The notes below the pieces were generated by a model. The model saw only the letters and a program-made list of their open reading frames with translations, was not told where the DNA came from and did no database searches. DNA of 64,000 nucleotides from an uncultured Gammaproteobacteria bacterium (GTDB taxonomy: Bacteria > Pseudomonadota > Gammaproteobacteria > DRJJ01): positions 282,988 to 346,987 of the forward strand of contig CAMYJU010000003.1 of NCBI GenBank assembly GCA_947258795.1, written 5' to 3'. The translations under genes were made by a program, and so were the position numbers. Position 1 is the first letter of the stretch. The number at the start of each line of letters is the position of its first letter. Shown here one piece after another: positions 41,436 through 48,569 of the stretch.

Positions 41436-43409
41436 ATGGCAAAGCGTAGAGAACTCGCCAATGCCATCCGTGCGTTGAGCATGGACGCAGTTCAGAAAGC
41501 CAAGTCAGGGCACCCGGGTGCACCGATGGGTATGGCTGATATTGCCGAAGTACTGTGGAATGACCACATGGCCCACAACCCGGCCAATCCGAATTGGGCC
41601 AACCGTGATCGTTTCGTGCTGTCGAATGGTCATGGCTCCATGCTGATTTATTCACTGCTGCACCTGACCGGCTATGACCTGAGTATGGATGACCTGAAAA
41701 ATTTCCGTCAGTTGCATTCCAGGACGCCGGGACATCCAGAATACGGTTACGCACCAGGTGTGGAAACCACCACCGGTCCACTGGGCCAGGGTATTACCAA
41801 TGCCGTTGGTATGGCGATTGCCGAAAAATCACTAGCTGGCCAGTTTAACCAGAAAAATCACAATATCGTTGATCACCATACCTATGTGTTCCTGGGTGAT
41901 GGTTGCCTGATGGAAGGTATTTCCCACGAGTCCTGTTCACTAGCCGGTACCCTGGGCCTGGGCAAGCTGATTGCATTCTGGGATGATAACGGTATTTCTA
42001 TCGACGGCCATGTAGAAGGCTGGTTCACTGACAACACACCAGGCCGTTTCGAATCTTATGGCTGGCACGTGATTGCGGATGTCGATGGGCATGACCCTGA
42101 AGCGATTCAGAAGGCTGTTGAGACGGCCAAGTCCATGACTGACAAGCCGACCCTGATCTGTTGCAAGACCACCATTGGTTTCGGCTCTCCGAACAAGGCC
42201 GGTTCACATGCATGTCATGGTGCGCCGCTGGGTGAAGAGGAAATTAACCTGACCAAGGCAGCCCTGGGTTGGGATCACGGAGCCTTCGAAGTTCCACGTG
42301 ATATTTATCATGGCTGGGATGCGAAGGAAAAAGGCGCCGATGCCGAAGCAGCCTGGAATGACAGGTTCGCGGCCTACAAGGCCGAGCATCCGGAATTGGC
42401 AGCGGAATTTGAACGCCGCATGAACGGTGACCTGCCTGCCGATTGGGCTGAAAAGTCTGCTGCCTATATTGCAAGTGTTAACGAAAAGGCGGACAGTCCG
42501 GCAACACGTAAGGCATCACTGAATTCTATCGAGGCTTACTCACCAGAAGTACCCGAGCTGTTTGGCGGATCTGCAGACCTGGGTTGTTCCAACCTGACCG
42601 AATGGTCCGGTTACAAGCCGATGGATGCCAACGAAGTGCCTAACTACGTTCGTTACGGTGTACGCGAATTCGGTATGTCTGCGATAATGAATGGAATTGC
42701 GCTGCACGGCGGACTGATACCATTCGGTGCGACCTTCCTGATGTTTTCTGAATACGCGCGTAATGCACTGCGTATGGCGGCGCTGATGAAGATACAGAGC
42801 ATTTTTGTTTATACCCATGACTCAATTGGTCTGGGTGAAGACGGTCCGACCCATCAGCCGATCGAGCAGATCCCAACTTTACGCATGATTCCGAACATGG
42901 CGGTATGGCGTCCCTGTGATGCGGTTGAATCGGCCGTTGCCTGGGCATCTGCGATCGAACGTAATGGTGGACCGAGCTGTCTGATCTTCTCGCGCCAGGG
43001 TCTGCCGCATCAGACGCGTTCTGACGATCAGATCGCGTCTATCCGCCAGGGTGGTTATATCCTTAAAGACTGCGACGGTACACCGGATGCGATCATCATC
43101 GGTACCGGCTCAGAGGTTCAGCTGGCTATGGGTGCTGCTGAAGCAATATCAGGCAAGAACATTCGTGTTGTTTCCATGCCCTCTGTTGATGCCTTTGAAG
43201 CACAGGATGATGCCTACCGTGCATCCGTGCTGCCCAAGGATGTCCCAACTGTTGCCGTTGAGGCAGCTGTGGCGGGTGGCTGGTACAAGTATGCTGATGC
43301 AGTACATGGTATCGACCGCTTCGGCGAGTCTGCCCCGGATAAGGATTTGTTTAAGGAATTTGGCTTCACCGTTGAAGATGTCGTGAAGACCGTTGAATCA
43401 GTTTTGTAA
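41436..43409 (+). CDS. tkt: transketolase
   Basis: A 657-residue thiamine-diphosphate enzyme of the pentose phosphate or Calvin cycle. It has [18 protein letters not shown] at the N-terminus, the TPP motif [22 protein letters not shown], and the pyrimidine-domain segment [16 protein letters not shown]. It begins the same-direction run tkt-gap-pgk-pyk-fba. AGGAGA precedes the ATG. Confidence 0.97.
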
Positions 43410-43447: not shown

Positions 43448-44452
43448 ATGGCTATTAAAGTCGGTATTAATGGTTTCGGCCGTATCGGTCGTATGGTATT
43501 CCGCGCCGTATATAACGAATTCAAGGATATTGAAATCGTCGGTATCAACGATCTGCTGGACGCTGATTACCTGGCATACATGTTGAAGTATGACTCAGTA
43601 CACGGTCGTTTTGGTGGTACGGTTGAAGCTGGCGACGGCTGCATGATCGTTGATGGCAAGAAAATTCGCCTGACTGCAGAACGCGATCCTTCAGACCTGA
43701 AATGGGGTGACGTAGACGCAGATATCGTTATCGACTGTACCGGTTTCTTCCTGACCGAAGAAAGCTGCCAGAAGCATATCGACGCCGGCGCCAAGAAGGT
43801 TGTTCAGTCGGCACCTTCTAAAGACGGCACGCCCATGTTTGTATACGGTGTTAACCACGATACCTATGCAGGTCAGAAAATCGTTTCCGCCGCTTCCTGT
43901 ACAACTAACTGTCTGGCACCGATTGCCAAGGTTCTGAACGACAAGTGGGGCATCAAGCGTGGTCTGATGACTACTGTTCACGCAGCTACTGCAACTCAGA
44001 AGACTGTAGATGGTCCTTCACAGAAAGACTGGCGCGGTGGTCGCGGCATCCTGGAAAACATCATTCCGTCATCCACAGGCGCAGCCAAGGCGGTTGGTGT
44101 GGTTCTGCCTGAGCTGAATGGCAAATTGACCGGTATGGCTTTCCGTATCCCGGCTTCTGATGTTTCGGTTGTTGACCTGACCTGTGAGCTGGATAAGGAA
44201 GCATCATACGAAGAAATCTGTGCGGCAATGAAAGAGGCTTCCGAGTCTGGTGACATGAGCAAGACCCTGGGCTACACAGACGAGAAGGTTGTTTCTACCG
44301 ACTTCCGTGGCGTAGGTTTCTCATCAGTTTTTGATGCTGAGGCCGGTATCGCACTGGACGGTACTTTCGTGAAGCTGGTTAGTTGGTATGACAACGAATA
44401 CGGTTATACCTGTAACATGATGAGGTTCGTAGAACACGTCGCAGCTAATTAA
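43448..44452 (+). CDS. gap: glyceraldehyde-3-phosphate dehydrogenase, type I
   Basis: A 334-residue enzyme with the NAD fold [15 protein letters not shown] and the catalytic Cys in [12 protein letters not shown] (near residue 152). It is 38 bases after tkt with AGGAG before the ATG. A 126-base near-palindrome begins at the base after its stop codon. Confidence 0.97.
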
Positions 44453-44578
44453 TTTAAGCGGAAATTTTTGTACGCTGAGGGTGTAGCGGTACGAGTTTAA
44501 ATTGCCCGCGTATTATTTATACGCACCGCATTTAAACCCGCACCGCGCCTACTCAGCGCACAAAATCTCTCGCTTAAA
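44453..44578. repeat. 126-base near-perfect palindrome between gap and pgk
   Basis: Two arms of about 60 bases mirror each other around the loop TTATTTA (44513-44519). Matching blocks from outside in: TTTAAGCG (44453-44460) with CGCTTAAA (44571-44578); TTTTTGTACGCTGAG with CTCAGCGCACAAAA; GTTTAAA with TTTAAAC; GCGTA with TACGC. The blocks between are of equal or nearly equal length. As RNA it makes one long hairpin; as DNA it looks like a miniature inverted-repeat element. I saw no second copy in the window. Confidence 0.8.
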
Positions 44579-44599
44579 TACGCGGTATGTTTTGGAGTG

Positions 44600-44628
44600 A
44601 AGCCCGGTCTGTTTTTCAGGCCGGGCTT
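44600..44628 (+). terminator. hairpin that may attenuate or end the gap transcript
   Basis: AAGCCCGG and CCGGGCTT (eight pairs) flank an inner CTG-TTTTT-CAG. Only three T follow the stem, so it would be a weak terminator or a processing and stability element between gap and pgk. Confidence 0.5.
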
Positions 44629-44734
44629 TGGTCCAACAAAAAAATTGTTTGTTAAGCCAAAGCACGCGTTATAAATCGGGTTACAAAGATTTAACAAACA
44701 GTTTTTATAATTTTGAGTTCTTTAGGAGTGTTAC

Positions 44735-45913
44735 ATGTCTTTTATCAAGCTGACTGATCTGGATCTGTCTGGCAAGCGCGTCTTGATCCGTGCCGACCTG
44801 AACGTGCCTGTCAAAGATGGCAAGGTTACTTCCGATGCCCGTATCACAGCCTCCATGCCGACGATCGAGCACTGCATGAAGGCCGGTGCTTCAGTAATGG
44901 TGATGTCGCACCGTGGCCGTCCGGAAGAGGGCAAGGTGGATGAGGAAAATTCCATGGCGCCGATTGCAGCGGATATGTCTGCCAAGCTGGGCAAGGAAGT
45001 GCTCCTGGTTAAGGATTACCTCGATGGTGGTTTTGATGTGGCTGCTGGTGAATGCGTATTGCTTGAAAACGTGCGTTTCAATGCGGGTGAAAAGAAAGAC
45101 AACGAAGAACTGGCGAAGAAGTACGCGGCGCTGTGTGACGTGTTTGTGATGGACGCCTTTGGAACGGCCCATCGCGCCCAGGCCTCGACCCATGGTGCCG
45201 GCAAGTTTGCACCGACCGCCTGTGCCGGTCTGCTGTTGGCCGATGAGCTGGATAACCTGGCCAAGGCGCTGGCCAACCCGGCGCGCCCAATGGTCGCGAT
45301 TGTTGGTGGTTCCAAGGTCTCTACCAAGCTGACCGTGCTGGAGGCCCTGTCCGAGAAGGTTGACCAGCTGGTGGTTGGTGGTGGTATTGCCAATACTTTC
45401 CTGAAAGCCATGGGTAACAACGTAGGCAAGTCGCTGTGTGAAAACGACCTGGTTGATACGGCCAAAGCGCTGGTTGAAAAAATGAAGGCGCATGGTGCGA
45501 ATATTCCTATCGCAACCGATGTGGTTTGTGGCAAGGAGTTCTCAGAAACAGCTGAAGCCACCCTTAAAGCAGCTGGGGATGTTGAGGATGACGATATGAT
45601 TTTCGACATCGGCCCGGACAGTGCAAATGAACTTGCTGAGATCATCAGCAATGCCGGCACAATCGTCTGGAATGGTCCGGTTGGGGTATTTGAGTTTGAT
45701 CAGTTTGGTGAAGGTACCAAGACGGTATCCATGGCGATTGCCAATGCCGATGGCTTCAGCCTCGCAGGTGGTGGCGATACGATTGCGGCGATCCAGAAAT
45801 ATGATATCTACGACAAGGTTTCGTATATCTCGACAGCGGGTGGTGCATTCCTCGAGTACCTCGAGGGCAAGACATTGCCAGCCGTTGCGATGCTGGAAGA
45901 ACGCGCTAAATAA
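44735..45913 (+). CDS. pgk: phosphoglycerate kinase
   Basis: A 392-residue kinase of glycolysis and the Calvin cycle: [13 protein letters not shown] at the N-terminus, [37 protein letters not shown], and the C-terminal GGGDTIAAI. It starts 282 bases after gap, beyond the palindrome and hairpin, so it may have its own promoter in the AT-rich stretch near 44660-44715. TAGGAG lies before the ATG. Confidence 0.97.
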
Positions 45914-45961: not shown

Positions 45962-47413
45962 ATGCTGCGCAGAACTAAAATCATAGCCACGCTGGGGCCG
46001 GCTACGGATGATCCGCAAATGCTCGATCAGATTATCGAGGCCGGTGTGGATGTTGTTCGTCTTAATTTTTCTCACGGGACACCCGAACAGCACAAGGCGC
46101 GTGCCGAGCAGATCCGCAATCGAGCACGCGCACACGGCCGCCAGGTCGGGGTGCTGGTAGATCTGCAAGGACCCAAGATCCGCATCGAAAAGTTTGTTGA
46201 AGGCAAGGTCAGACTGACACCGGGCGAGGCGTTAATTCTTGATGCCGGGCTGGACGAGAACGCCGGTACAGCAGAACGCGTCGGCATATCCTATAAACAA
46301 CTGGTTAATGACGTAAAGCGTGGCGACACCCTGTTGCTGGACGACGGCCGTGTGGTATTACGAGTCGATGACATTAGCGGGAACGAAGTTGTCTGCAAGG
46401 TAATCGTTGGCGAGGAATTATCCGATCGCAAGGGGATCAATCGCCAGGGCGGTGGTCTTACCGCACCGGCACTGACGGAAAAGGACCGCGCCGATATCAT
46501 TGATGCGGCAGAAATACAGGCCGACTATGTGGCCGTCTCATTTGTTCGAAATGCTGATGATGTGAACGAAGCGCGCAGCCTGCTACGTGACGCAGGCGGT
46601 CATGGCGGGATCGTTGCCAAGATCGAACGCGCCGATGCGCTGGAGCGTATCGAGGAGATCATAGATGCCTCGGATGTGATTATGGTGGCTCGTGGTGACC
46701 TGGGTGTGGAGATTGGTGACGCCAGTCTGCCACCGGTGCAGAAACACCTGATCCACCTTGGCCGCACCCACAACCGCGTGGTGATCACCGCGACCCAGAT
46801 GATGGAGTCGATGATTACCAGTCATATACCTACCCGGGCAGAGGTCTTTGATGTGGCCAACTCGGTACTGGATGGCACCGATGCGGTAATGCTGTCGGCC
46901 GAGACTGCGACCGGCAAATATCCACACATGGCGATCGCCGCGATGGACCGTATCTGTCTTGAGGCGGAAAAGCAGCGCCTGGCCTCGAAATCGGATCACC
47001 GTATCGATACCCGCTTTGAGCGTATCGATGAATCGATTGCAATGGCTACCATGTATACGGCCAACCATCTTCAGGTCAAGGCGATAGCTGCATTGACAGA
47101 GTCTGGTTCAACCACTTTGTGGATGTCACGCATCAGCTCGGGTATCCCGATCTATGCGCTGACCAAGCACGTGGAAACCCGTCGCAAGGTTACTCTGTTT
47201 CGTGGTGTCTACCCGGTCAGTTTTGAGCCGGAGTCGACCACCCACGCGTCGATCAATCATGAGGTGATCGATGAGCTGGTGCGTCGCGGGACCGTGCGCG
47301 ATGGTGACCTGGTGATTATCACCAAGGGTGACCTGATGGGGGTTATGGGCGGTACCAATGCCATGAAAATAGTACGGGTTGGCAGTATGCCGACTGACGA
47401 CGATATTGGCTAA
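45962..47413 (+). CDS. pyk: pyruvate kinase
   Basis: A 483-residue enzyme making pyruvate and ATP from phosphoenolpyruvate: RRTKIIATLGPATDDPQML, RLNFSHGTPEQH, VAKIERADAL, the loop MVARGDLGVEIG and TATQMMESM. It starts 48 bases after pgk. Its place between pgk and fba, also seen in several autotrophic and related gammaproteobacteria, links lower glycolysis to the Calvin-cycle enzymes. Confidence 0.97.
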   Translation: MLRRTKIIATLGPATDDPQMLDQIIEAGVDVVRLNFSHGTPEQHKARAEQIRNRARAHGRQVGVLVDLQGPKIRIEKFVEGKVRLTPGEALILDAGLDENAGTAERVGISYKQLVNDVKRGDTLLLDDGRVVLRVDDISGNEVVCKVIVGEELSDRKGINRQGGGLTAPALTEKDRADIIDAAEIQADYVAVSFVRNADDVNEARSLLRDAGGHGGIVAKIERADALERIEEIIDASDVIMVARGDLGVEIGDASLPPVQKHLIHLGRTHNRVVITATQMMESMITSHIPTRAEVFDVANSVLDGTDAVMLSAETATGKYPHMAIAAMDRICLEAEKQRLASKSDHRIDTRFERIDESIAMATMYTANHLQVKAIAALTESGSTTLWMSRISSGIPIYALTKHVETRRKVTLFRGVYPVSFEPESTTHASINHEVIDELVRRGTVRDGDLVIITKGDLMGVMGGTNAMKIVRVGSMPTDDDIG

Positions 47414-47504: not shown

Positions 47505-48569
47505 ATGGCACTGATATCCATGCGTCAATTACTGGATCATGCCGCCGAGAATGGTTACGGCATGCCTGCGTTCAACGTTAACAATATGGAGCAGGTTCAT
47601 GCAATTATGCAAGCCGCAGAGGAAACCGACAGCCCGGTGATCATGCAGGGTTCTGCCGGTGCGCGCTCCTATGCCGGTGAGGCGTTTTTACGTCACCTGA
47701 TTCTTGCGGCGATCGAACAATATCCCCACATCCCTATTGTGATGCACCAGGACCATGGTTCCGAGCCAGCGGTTTGCCTGCGTTCCATCCAGTCCGGTTT
47801 CTCTTCTGTGATGATGGACGGCTCGTTGATGTCTGATATGAAAACACCGGCCTCGTTCGATTACAACGTAGACGTTACTCGCAAGGTAGTCGAAATTGCC
47901 CATGCAGGCGGTGTATCAGTCGAAGGCGAACTGGGTTGCCTGGGTTCTCTGGAAACCGGTGAAATGGGTGAAGAAGACGGTCACGGCGCGGAAGGCAAGC
48001 TGGATATGGATCAGCTGCTGACTGACCCGGACGAAGCGGCCGATTTTGTGAAAAAGACCGGTGTTGATGCGCTGGCTATCGCGATCGGTACCAGCCACGG
48101 TGCTTACAAGTTCACCCGTCCGCCGACAGGTGACATTCTGGCAATTAGCCGCATCAAGGAAATTCACCAGCGCCTGCCTAACACTCACCTGGTGATGCAT
48201 GGTTCTTCATCTGTACCACAGGACTGGCTGAAGATCATCAATGATTTCGGCGGTGACATGGGTGAGACCTATGGTGTACCGGTAGAAGAGATTCAGGAAG
48301 GCATCAAGAACGGTGTACGCAAGGTGAATATCGACACTGACCTGCGCATGGCGTCTACCGGTGCAGTTCGTAAGCACCTGAGTGAGAATGCATCCAACTT
48401 TGATCCACGTAAATTCCTGAAGGCATCTACTGCGGCCATGAAGGATATCTGCAAGGCACGCTACGAGGCATTCGGCGCGGCTGGTATGGCATCAAAGATC
48501 AAGGTTATCTCCCTTGAGGCAATGGTTGATCGTTATGCCAGCGGTGAACTGGATCCACGCGTAAGCTGA
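47505..48569 (+). CDS. fba: class II fructose-bisphosphate aldolase, CbbA-like
   Basis: A 354-residue metal-dependent aldolase. The start [19 protein letters not shown] is typical of the Calvin-cycle type. Metal and substrate residues lie in [33 protein letters not shown] and NIDTDLRMA. It is the last gene of the run and is followed by a strong terminator. Confidence 0.96.

Follow-up and report, generated by a model that had tools for sequence, protein, structure and literature searches.

The window, a 64,000-nt stretch of gammaproteobacterial DNA, carries a long palindrome directly behind gap, and the question is whether this sequence is a mobile element, a structured RNA between gap and pgk, or both. 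The gap gene, encoding type I glyceraldehyde-3-phosphate dehydrogenase (43448–44452, plus strand; NCBIfam TIGR01534, 440 bits), lies in a cluster of plus-strand reading frames whose other members, in part following the first-pass annotation, we provisionally name as tkt (41436–43409), the phosphoglycerate kinase gene pgk (44735–45913), pyk (45962–47413), and fba (47505–48569); gap alone is named by NCBIfam. The sole NCBIfam match of the pgk frame is NF010569, a bifunctional pgk/tpi model, at 438.9 bits and under its cut-off of 883. With 282 bases, the gap-pgk spacer is the widest within the tkt-gap-pgk-pyk-fba cluster.

Structure of the palindrome and its surroundings

The stop codon of gap (TAA) occupies 44450–44452, and the 126-nt palindrome (44453–44578, plus strand, same orientation as gap) opens at the very next base. 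The minimum free energy of 44440–44660 is −91.4 kcal/mol, compared with −57.8 ± 4.2 kcal/mol for 200 dinucleotide shuffles (z = −7.9), none of which was as stable. In this fold, 44453–44578 forms a single imperfect hairpin of about 120 nt. Its outer arms, 44452–44479 and 44552–44579, are 82% complementary by repeat search, and since the first of them begins at 44452, pairing extends one base into the gap stop codon. The first-pass annotation had described arms of about 60 bases directly after this stop around a 7-base loop; the start holds, but the apical loop has 5 bases in the minimum free energy fold and the stem is much interrupted by bulges and internal loops.

Based on the alignment of gap-site copies, the element can be divided into several parts, all given on the plus strand. 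The terminal arms TAAGCG (44455–44460) and CGCTTA (44571–44576) are conserved among these copies and place TA at the start and the end, respectively. Inside them, the 5′ box TTTTTGT (44465–44471; family TCTTTTGT) pairs with the 3′ box ACAAAATC (44560–44567), with columns 14–16 paired in all 40 copies. Additionally, a left conserved motif GGGTGTAG (44479–44486; family GCGGCGTTG) and a right conserved motif CGCCTAC (44546–44552; family CGCCTTGC) flank the apical hairpin GCCCGCGTATT..TATACGCACCGC (44504–44529; family TGCTCACGTACT..TGTACGCTCCGC), which, by comparison with the ERIC repeat, is the most ERIC-like portion of the element.

The consensus scan of 44300–44800 found no terminator-like or promoter-like site. 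An ordinary terminator was rejected on this ground. Behind the element, the supposed eight-pair hairpin is in fact a GC-rich stem of 14 pairs (44600–44629) in the fold, which the terminator scan does not accept either. A third palindrome, TTGTTTGTTAA..TTAACAAACAGTTTTT (44640–44706; 16-nt arms, 94% complementary), directly precedes pgk and is a possible pgk leader element. A pgk-proximal hairpin also occurs in the other 13 of 14 spacers folded, often with TTTGTTAA/TTAACAAA, and is present in some spacers that lack the element. Furthermore, no Rfam family came near its gathering score in 601 window bases and tRNA was the only match across 12 further loci, so a curated structured RNA was set aside.

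Relatives of the palindrome across Gammaproteobacteria

The first-pass annotation had held that a lack of other copies in the genome, together with a conserved hairpin in relatives, would argue for a local RNA element and against a mobile one. By BLAST, the genome of the window (3.36 Mb, 42 contigs) holds only the gap copy, the next matches being chance hits of 14–22 bases, nor did any of the remaining 55 genomes sampled as relatives yield a copy at E ≤ 0.001. Hairpins behind gap were found nearby nonetheless: the congener G001 has one, and L007 (JAQICG01), whose gap is 92% identical, has two of the same build in tandem. The ends of these hairpins and that of the window agree (TAAGCGGATCTTTT .. 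AAAATCTCTCGCTTA), and their stems covary. Because BLAST misses diverged members, covariance models were used. R1 was built from four sequences (the window, the two L007 copies, and G001), and R2 is a broader model; both include gap-site copies. Since R1 derives from gap copies, a control model, R3, was trained exclusively on 20 copies from outside gap. The window copy scores 118.4 bits with R1, which was trained on it, and 80.3 bits (E = 5e-21) with R3, which contains no gap-site copies.

The class-wide R1 search, run with stricter filters, matched 110 of 369 genomes at E ≤ 0.01, a rough count because scoring was limited to nine candidates in each genome. Outside the genus, each of the eight top-scoring loci (L125–L132, from eight families, 128 to 87 bits) is found where a gap gene ends, and so are the lower-scoring L135 and L138, but not L133 and L134 between them. 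Weaker R1 loci are dispersed elements with the same motifs and different outer arms. Across 35 copies (14 at gap, 21 elsewhere), both sides changed in 24 of 26 predicted pairs. The motifs GCGGCGTTG, TGCTCA.GTACT..TGTA..CTCCGC, and CGCCTTGC are fixed in the family, while the stems between them vary freely yet remain paired. At E ≤ 0.1, R2 found 72 matches in G164, 26 in G332, and 22 in G099. In the genome of the window it found three, namely the gap copy (102.7 bits), a second member at G000:C11:36052–36179 (88.0 bits), and a weak match at G000:C3:59843–59947 (30.4 bits). The genome is therefore single-copy at the BLAST level and holds diverged relatives at the covariance-model level, so that only half of the pattern said to argue against mobility was found. 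In addition, the apical part of the copy at L364:1501–1677 (G416) is longer by about 50 bases.

Many of the dispersed copies lie near gene ends. The C11 copy (L122) stands directly behind the stop of an nrdJ-like gene (B12-dependent ribonucleotide reductase, by likeness of the gene end). Similarly, L140 and L149, from two other families, begin directly after a gene that is nrdJ-like by C-terminal sequence, and L137 and L147, from one family, lie at the end of a like gene, typed in L137 as an nrdJ barrel. Other typed upstream genes encode ribose-phosphate pyrophosphokinase (prs), malate synthase G, HPPD, ribosomal protein L1 (rplA), RpoC, NlpB/BamC, and Fe-S subunits. Based on mechanical ORFs of at least 70 aa, 14 of 23 non-gap copies begin −5 to +18 nt from an upstream same-strand stop; in 5 of 23, the end of the copy is no more than 20 nt from a downstream opposite-strand stop, with one copy in both counts. 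The corresponding figures for G332, G164, and G099 together are 13 of 40 copies for same-strand stops (15-nt limit) and 9 of 40 for opposite-strand stops (20-nt limit).

To assess movement, we compared a 19.5-kb stretch of G332 with three copies (L386) with five genomes of its family by HSP coordinates. The spacer of copy 1 is 147–149 nt shorter in three of five relatives, the other two differing by +7 and −21 nt; that of copy 2 is 165–166 nt shorter in all five; and that of copy 3 is 135–145 nt shorter in all four comparable relatives, the fifth not being comparable. Thus, 12 of 14 comparable spacers are shorter by about one element (135–166 nt), and since these lack the insert of about 150 nt, the family moves. 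This insertion polymorphism is shown for the G332 branch, which has longer arms, (TA)GGGCACCTC..GAGGTGCCC, than the gap-type branch. Among the matches listed, element copies elsewhere in G332 and its relatives are 91–95% identical. Empty sites were found, but their flanks are approximately 73% identical and the palindromic ends mask a TA duplication, so that a target-site duplication cannot be read. Two further repeats of about 140–150 nt, L386:5128–5266 and L386:6692–6847, also occur in many copies in G332 and its relatives.

To our knowledge, ERIC repeats have been known since about 1990, with their origin, mover, and function left open. As reference we used two E. coli copies next to ybhJ, at the same place in two strains. 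These align in register with the family, at 9.1 and 7.9 bits with R1 and 16.5–19.7 bits over the R2 and R3 searches (17–18 in one R2 search, 18.7–19.7 with R3); in the 514 kb that were scanned with R2, the one sequence to outscore ERIC is L031, which is a gap-site copy too. In a four-motif profile, ERIC scores 38.1 and 40.5, within the family range of 32–67, whereas 1000 hairpin-keeping shuffles reach at most 16.5. A sequence-only nhmmer profile, in contrast, reported no ERIC hit, and the family is filed as ERIC-like rather than ERIC. Like ERIC (also IRU or RU-1; 127 bp), the present elements are intergenic, 118–127 nt long (118–126 nt in the 40 gap copies), and fold into one long imperfect hairpin. 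They share, in register, the apical motif TCAC.TACT..ATGTA.GCTCC and CGCCTT. TA stands at both termini of the window copy and within the first and last 6 nt of 26 of 40 gap copies and 11 of 20 dispersed copies, although model boundaries are not always true ends. In contrast to these likenesses, sequence similarity to ERIC is distant, and the present family occurs in many other gammaproteobacterial families with a recurrent site at gap. Collectively, these comparisons suggest that the family is a probable distant relative of ERIC, and the gap palindrome very likely belongs to it.

Other known systems were set beside the family. Integron attC sites likewise follow stop codons directly, as imperfect palindromes of comparable length; they recombine through the folded bottom strand and have the core sites RYYYAAC and GTTRRRY. 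Both core sites occur together in none of 60 copies (0 of 40 at gap, 0 of 20 dispersed), and attC was rejected. Published reports place ERIC in Enterobacteriaceae and Vibrionaceae (PMC10969869), among them E. coli, Y. pestis, and V. cholerae (PMC2267715), and describe an orientation-dependent effect of ERIC on the stability of upstream mRNA in Yersinia (PMC2229807, PMC10969869). One of these reports also describes Correia/NEMIS elements of Neisseria, small TA-ended palindromes whose hairpins in the RNA have been tied to cleavage by RNase III (PMC2229807); by this description, they resemble our family in build and differ in lineage. QMITE2 of Coxiella burnetii measures 150–190 bp and lies mainly in 3′ untranslated regions at positions conserved between strains (PMC5896051). 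Compared by description, it shares 3′-UTR placement and conserved position with the present elements but differs in its 7–11-nt direct repeats and REP core. Overall, the family is a widespread one of palindromic insertion elements, very probably of the ERIC kind, about 120–150 nt long, with probable TA ends, no gene, and one long imperfect hairpin. Short length, inverted repeats, and presence in several places also agree with bacterial MITEs, and the earlier reading as a miniature inverted-repeat element is upheld by this dispersed family inserted at many loci.

Occupation of the gap site and its possible inheritance

A gap gene of the window type (E ≤ 1e-100) occurs in 151 of 369 class genomes, and 130 loci (L155–L284) were examined. 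By R1, 11 of them carry the element at the stop of gap; R3 recovers the same 11 and adds L262 (58.3 bits) and a partial copy, L267 (19.9 bits), all at the gap stop, with nothing further in the 130 loci at E ≤ 10. Further gap-site copies are L125, where gap is cut by the contig end, and L031 (31.2 bits). Among 80 named gap loci, R1 matches L007 only, and R2 adds L031 at 23.9 bits. We found no paper on such an element at gap in the literature searched.

Occupation is densest in f137, the single family (54 genomes, including that of L007) that makes up the order of G142. R1 matches 33 of the 54 genomes at E ≤ 1e-12; of 29 loci read, 24 lie at gap (with pgk behind in 23) and the remaining five all lie behind one Fe-S subunit gene. 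Among the 37 gap genes of the window type whose 3′ end is present, 29 have the element; counting the gap fragment of G392 makes this 30 of 38. Those without it are G411, G382, G423, G254, G404, G401, G405, and G406, the last carrying a shortened derivative at gap. In the order of G062, a full copy is found in one of eight genomes; of the congeners of its carrier, G198 retains a remnant of 26 nt in this position and G303 nothing. The patchiness, with most class-wide gap loci and 8 of 37 in f137 lacking the element, indicates that it is dispensable and weighs against a role in the mRNA. The comparison of gap-pgk spacers suggested by the first-pass annotation finds the hairpin in many families but not at most class-wide gap loci. 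All 40 aligned gap copies share one orientation, whereas high-copy families lie both ways at stop codons. The element recurs at this one gap-pgk spot in many gammaproteobacteria that are only distantly related, as though retained for a function in the mRNA.

The gap copies are strongly conserved in structure. In their alignment (A4, 40 rows; L356, a gap-site copy of 119 nt, was omitted, and L347 was dropped as identical in location to L007 copy 1), 93.2% of cells are paired and double changes occur in 25 of 34 pairs. Covariation is 0.387, compared with 0.162 ± 0.008 after shuffling (none of 500 as high) and 0.056–0.115 for slid partners. From alignment A5, L145 was omitted as a near copy of L142. 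This conserved, covarying hairpin agrees with the structural part of the earlier reading as a large RNA hairpin. Moreover, in 12 f137 genomes with full-length gap (66 pairs), fourfold sites are 53.3% identical, motif columns 93.6%, and inner stems 60.3%, with 11–13 of 13 inner-stem pairs kept. If the copies were inherited, this pattern would be that of structure-bearing sequence under selection.

Signs of exchange are also present. A gap protein tree was drawn with 168 rows, of which 39 carry the element. On it, the distribution of the element requires 18 changes against a shuffled mean of 35.3 (none of 500 as low), and at least eight changes are forced by well-supported branches; labels follow the earlier matches, which leaves L262 and L267, detected afterwards with R3, among the rows lacking it. 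The window gap protein is 94% identical to that of another family (L156) and 84% to that of the congener G001, which suggests a xenologous replacement of gap; the two genes lie in different parts of the tree, and both genomes of the genus carry the element. Furthermore, the elements of G001 and L007 copy 1 are 94% identical while their gap DNA is 78% identical; the closest relative of L007 copy 2 is the G345 element (89%), compared with just 76% for its tandem partner, copy 1; and the G418 element resembles a fusion of the two L007 copies. These chimeric and mismatched copies indicate that some shuffling or re-insertion occurred.

Origin, possible role and alternatives

The palindrome is real and more than an ordinary terminator: it is an insertion element resembling ERIC, and the site that it occupies between gap and pgk is recurrent and structurally conserved; its function is inferred. 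Both earlier readings fit in part, the first for a mobile origin and the second for a structured spacer with a putative role in the mRNA. On balance, we lean towards the whole explanation, an ERIC-like mobile element by origin that is kept at gap as a cis-acting RNA. Transcription of gap within the cluster would run into the element and produce a stem of about 120 nt behind gap. This stem would cap the tkt-gap message and protect it from 3′-to-5′ decay, or serve as a processing site, or both. The tkt-gap and pgk-pyk-fba messages might thereby have separate fates, with gap expressed apart from, and probably more strongly than, pgk. That the element is kept at gap by selection rather than passively is more likely than not; that mRNA stability or processing is the reason is a tentative proposal that could fall either way.

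The passive alternative is an insertion hot spot, in which the family inserts at TA in or by stop codons and gap 3′ ends are re-hit because insertion there is harmless. The clustering of non-gap copies at stops would suit it, as would the changes forced on the gap tree and the two adjoining yet unlike copies of L007; stem types recurring across genera would also allow for replacement by re-insertion or conversion. However, the gap clade around L357–L369 is occupied without a break and with clade-specific ends, motif columns are far more conserved than fourfold sites, and the uniform orientation at gap departs from the high-copy families, so that we regard a mere hot spot as rather unlikely. 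A purely local, conserved gap-pgk spacer RNA without any link to mobile elements would account for the single BLAST-level copy and the strong covariation at gap, but it is largely refuted by the R3 score of the window copy, obtained with a model trained on copies elsewhere. The dispersed copies behind nrdJ, rpoC, rplA, prs, malate synthase, HPPD, bamC, and other genes, as well as the insertions in f113, leave it very improbable.

The relevant strand might also be the other one, as transposition DNA or antisense RNA, with the sense hairpin a by-product. In 37 of 40 gap copies it is the antisense strand that gives the more stable fold (mean −61.2 vs −50.9 kcal/mol), as it does in 20 of 21 dispersed copies, and at otherwise Watson-Crick pairs the sense strand of the gap copies in A4 has 47 A-C against 14 G-U combinations; both lie in the wrong direction for selection on a sense RNA. 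Against this, a T-G wobble (columns 33–101) stands in the sense strand of all 40 copies, attC core sites are absent from the ends, the energy gap may stem from fixed unpaired motifs, and the alignment cells are non-independent. The asymmetry may come from such motifs or from selection on the bottom strand, and a primary role of that strand appears improbable to us.

Returning to the ERIC-like element kept at gap as a cis-acting RNA, a bolder and more doubtful extension is that ERIC is the enterobacterial branch of an old class-wide superfamily, whose members were repeatedly captured at the stop of gap, as well as behind nrdJ, where they serve as cis-acting RNA regulators of central metabolism and were kept even when gap was replaced by a foreign gene. 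Should the family prove as broad as proposed, with a fixed, covarying copy in an essential operon, ERIC would have relatives outside enterobacteria and vibrios, and the uncoupling of gap and pgk in these operons would also be explained. The occupied, doubled, chimeric, shortened, and empty gap sites of close relatives form a natural series for testing host function and mobility.
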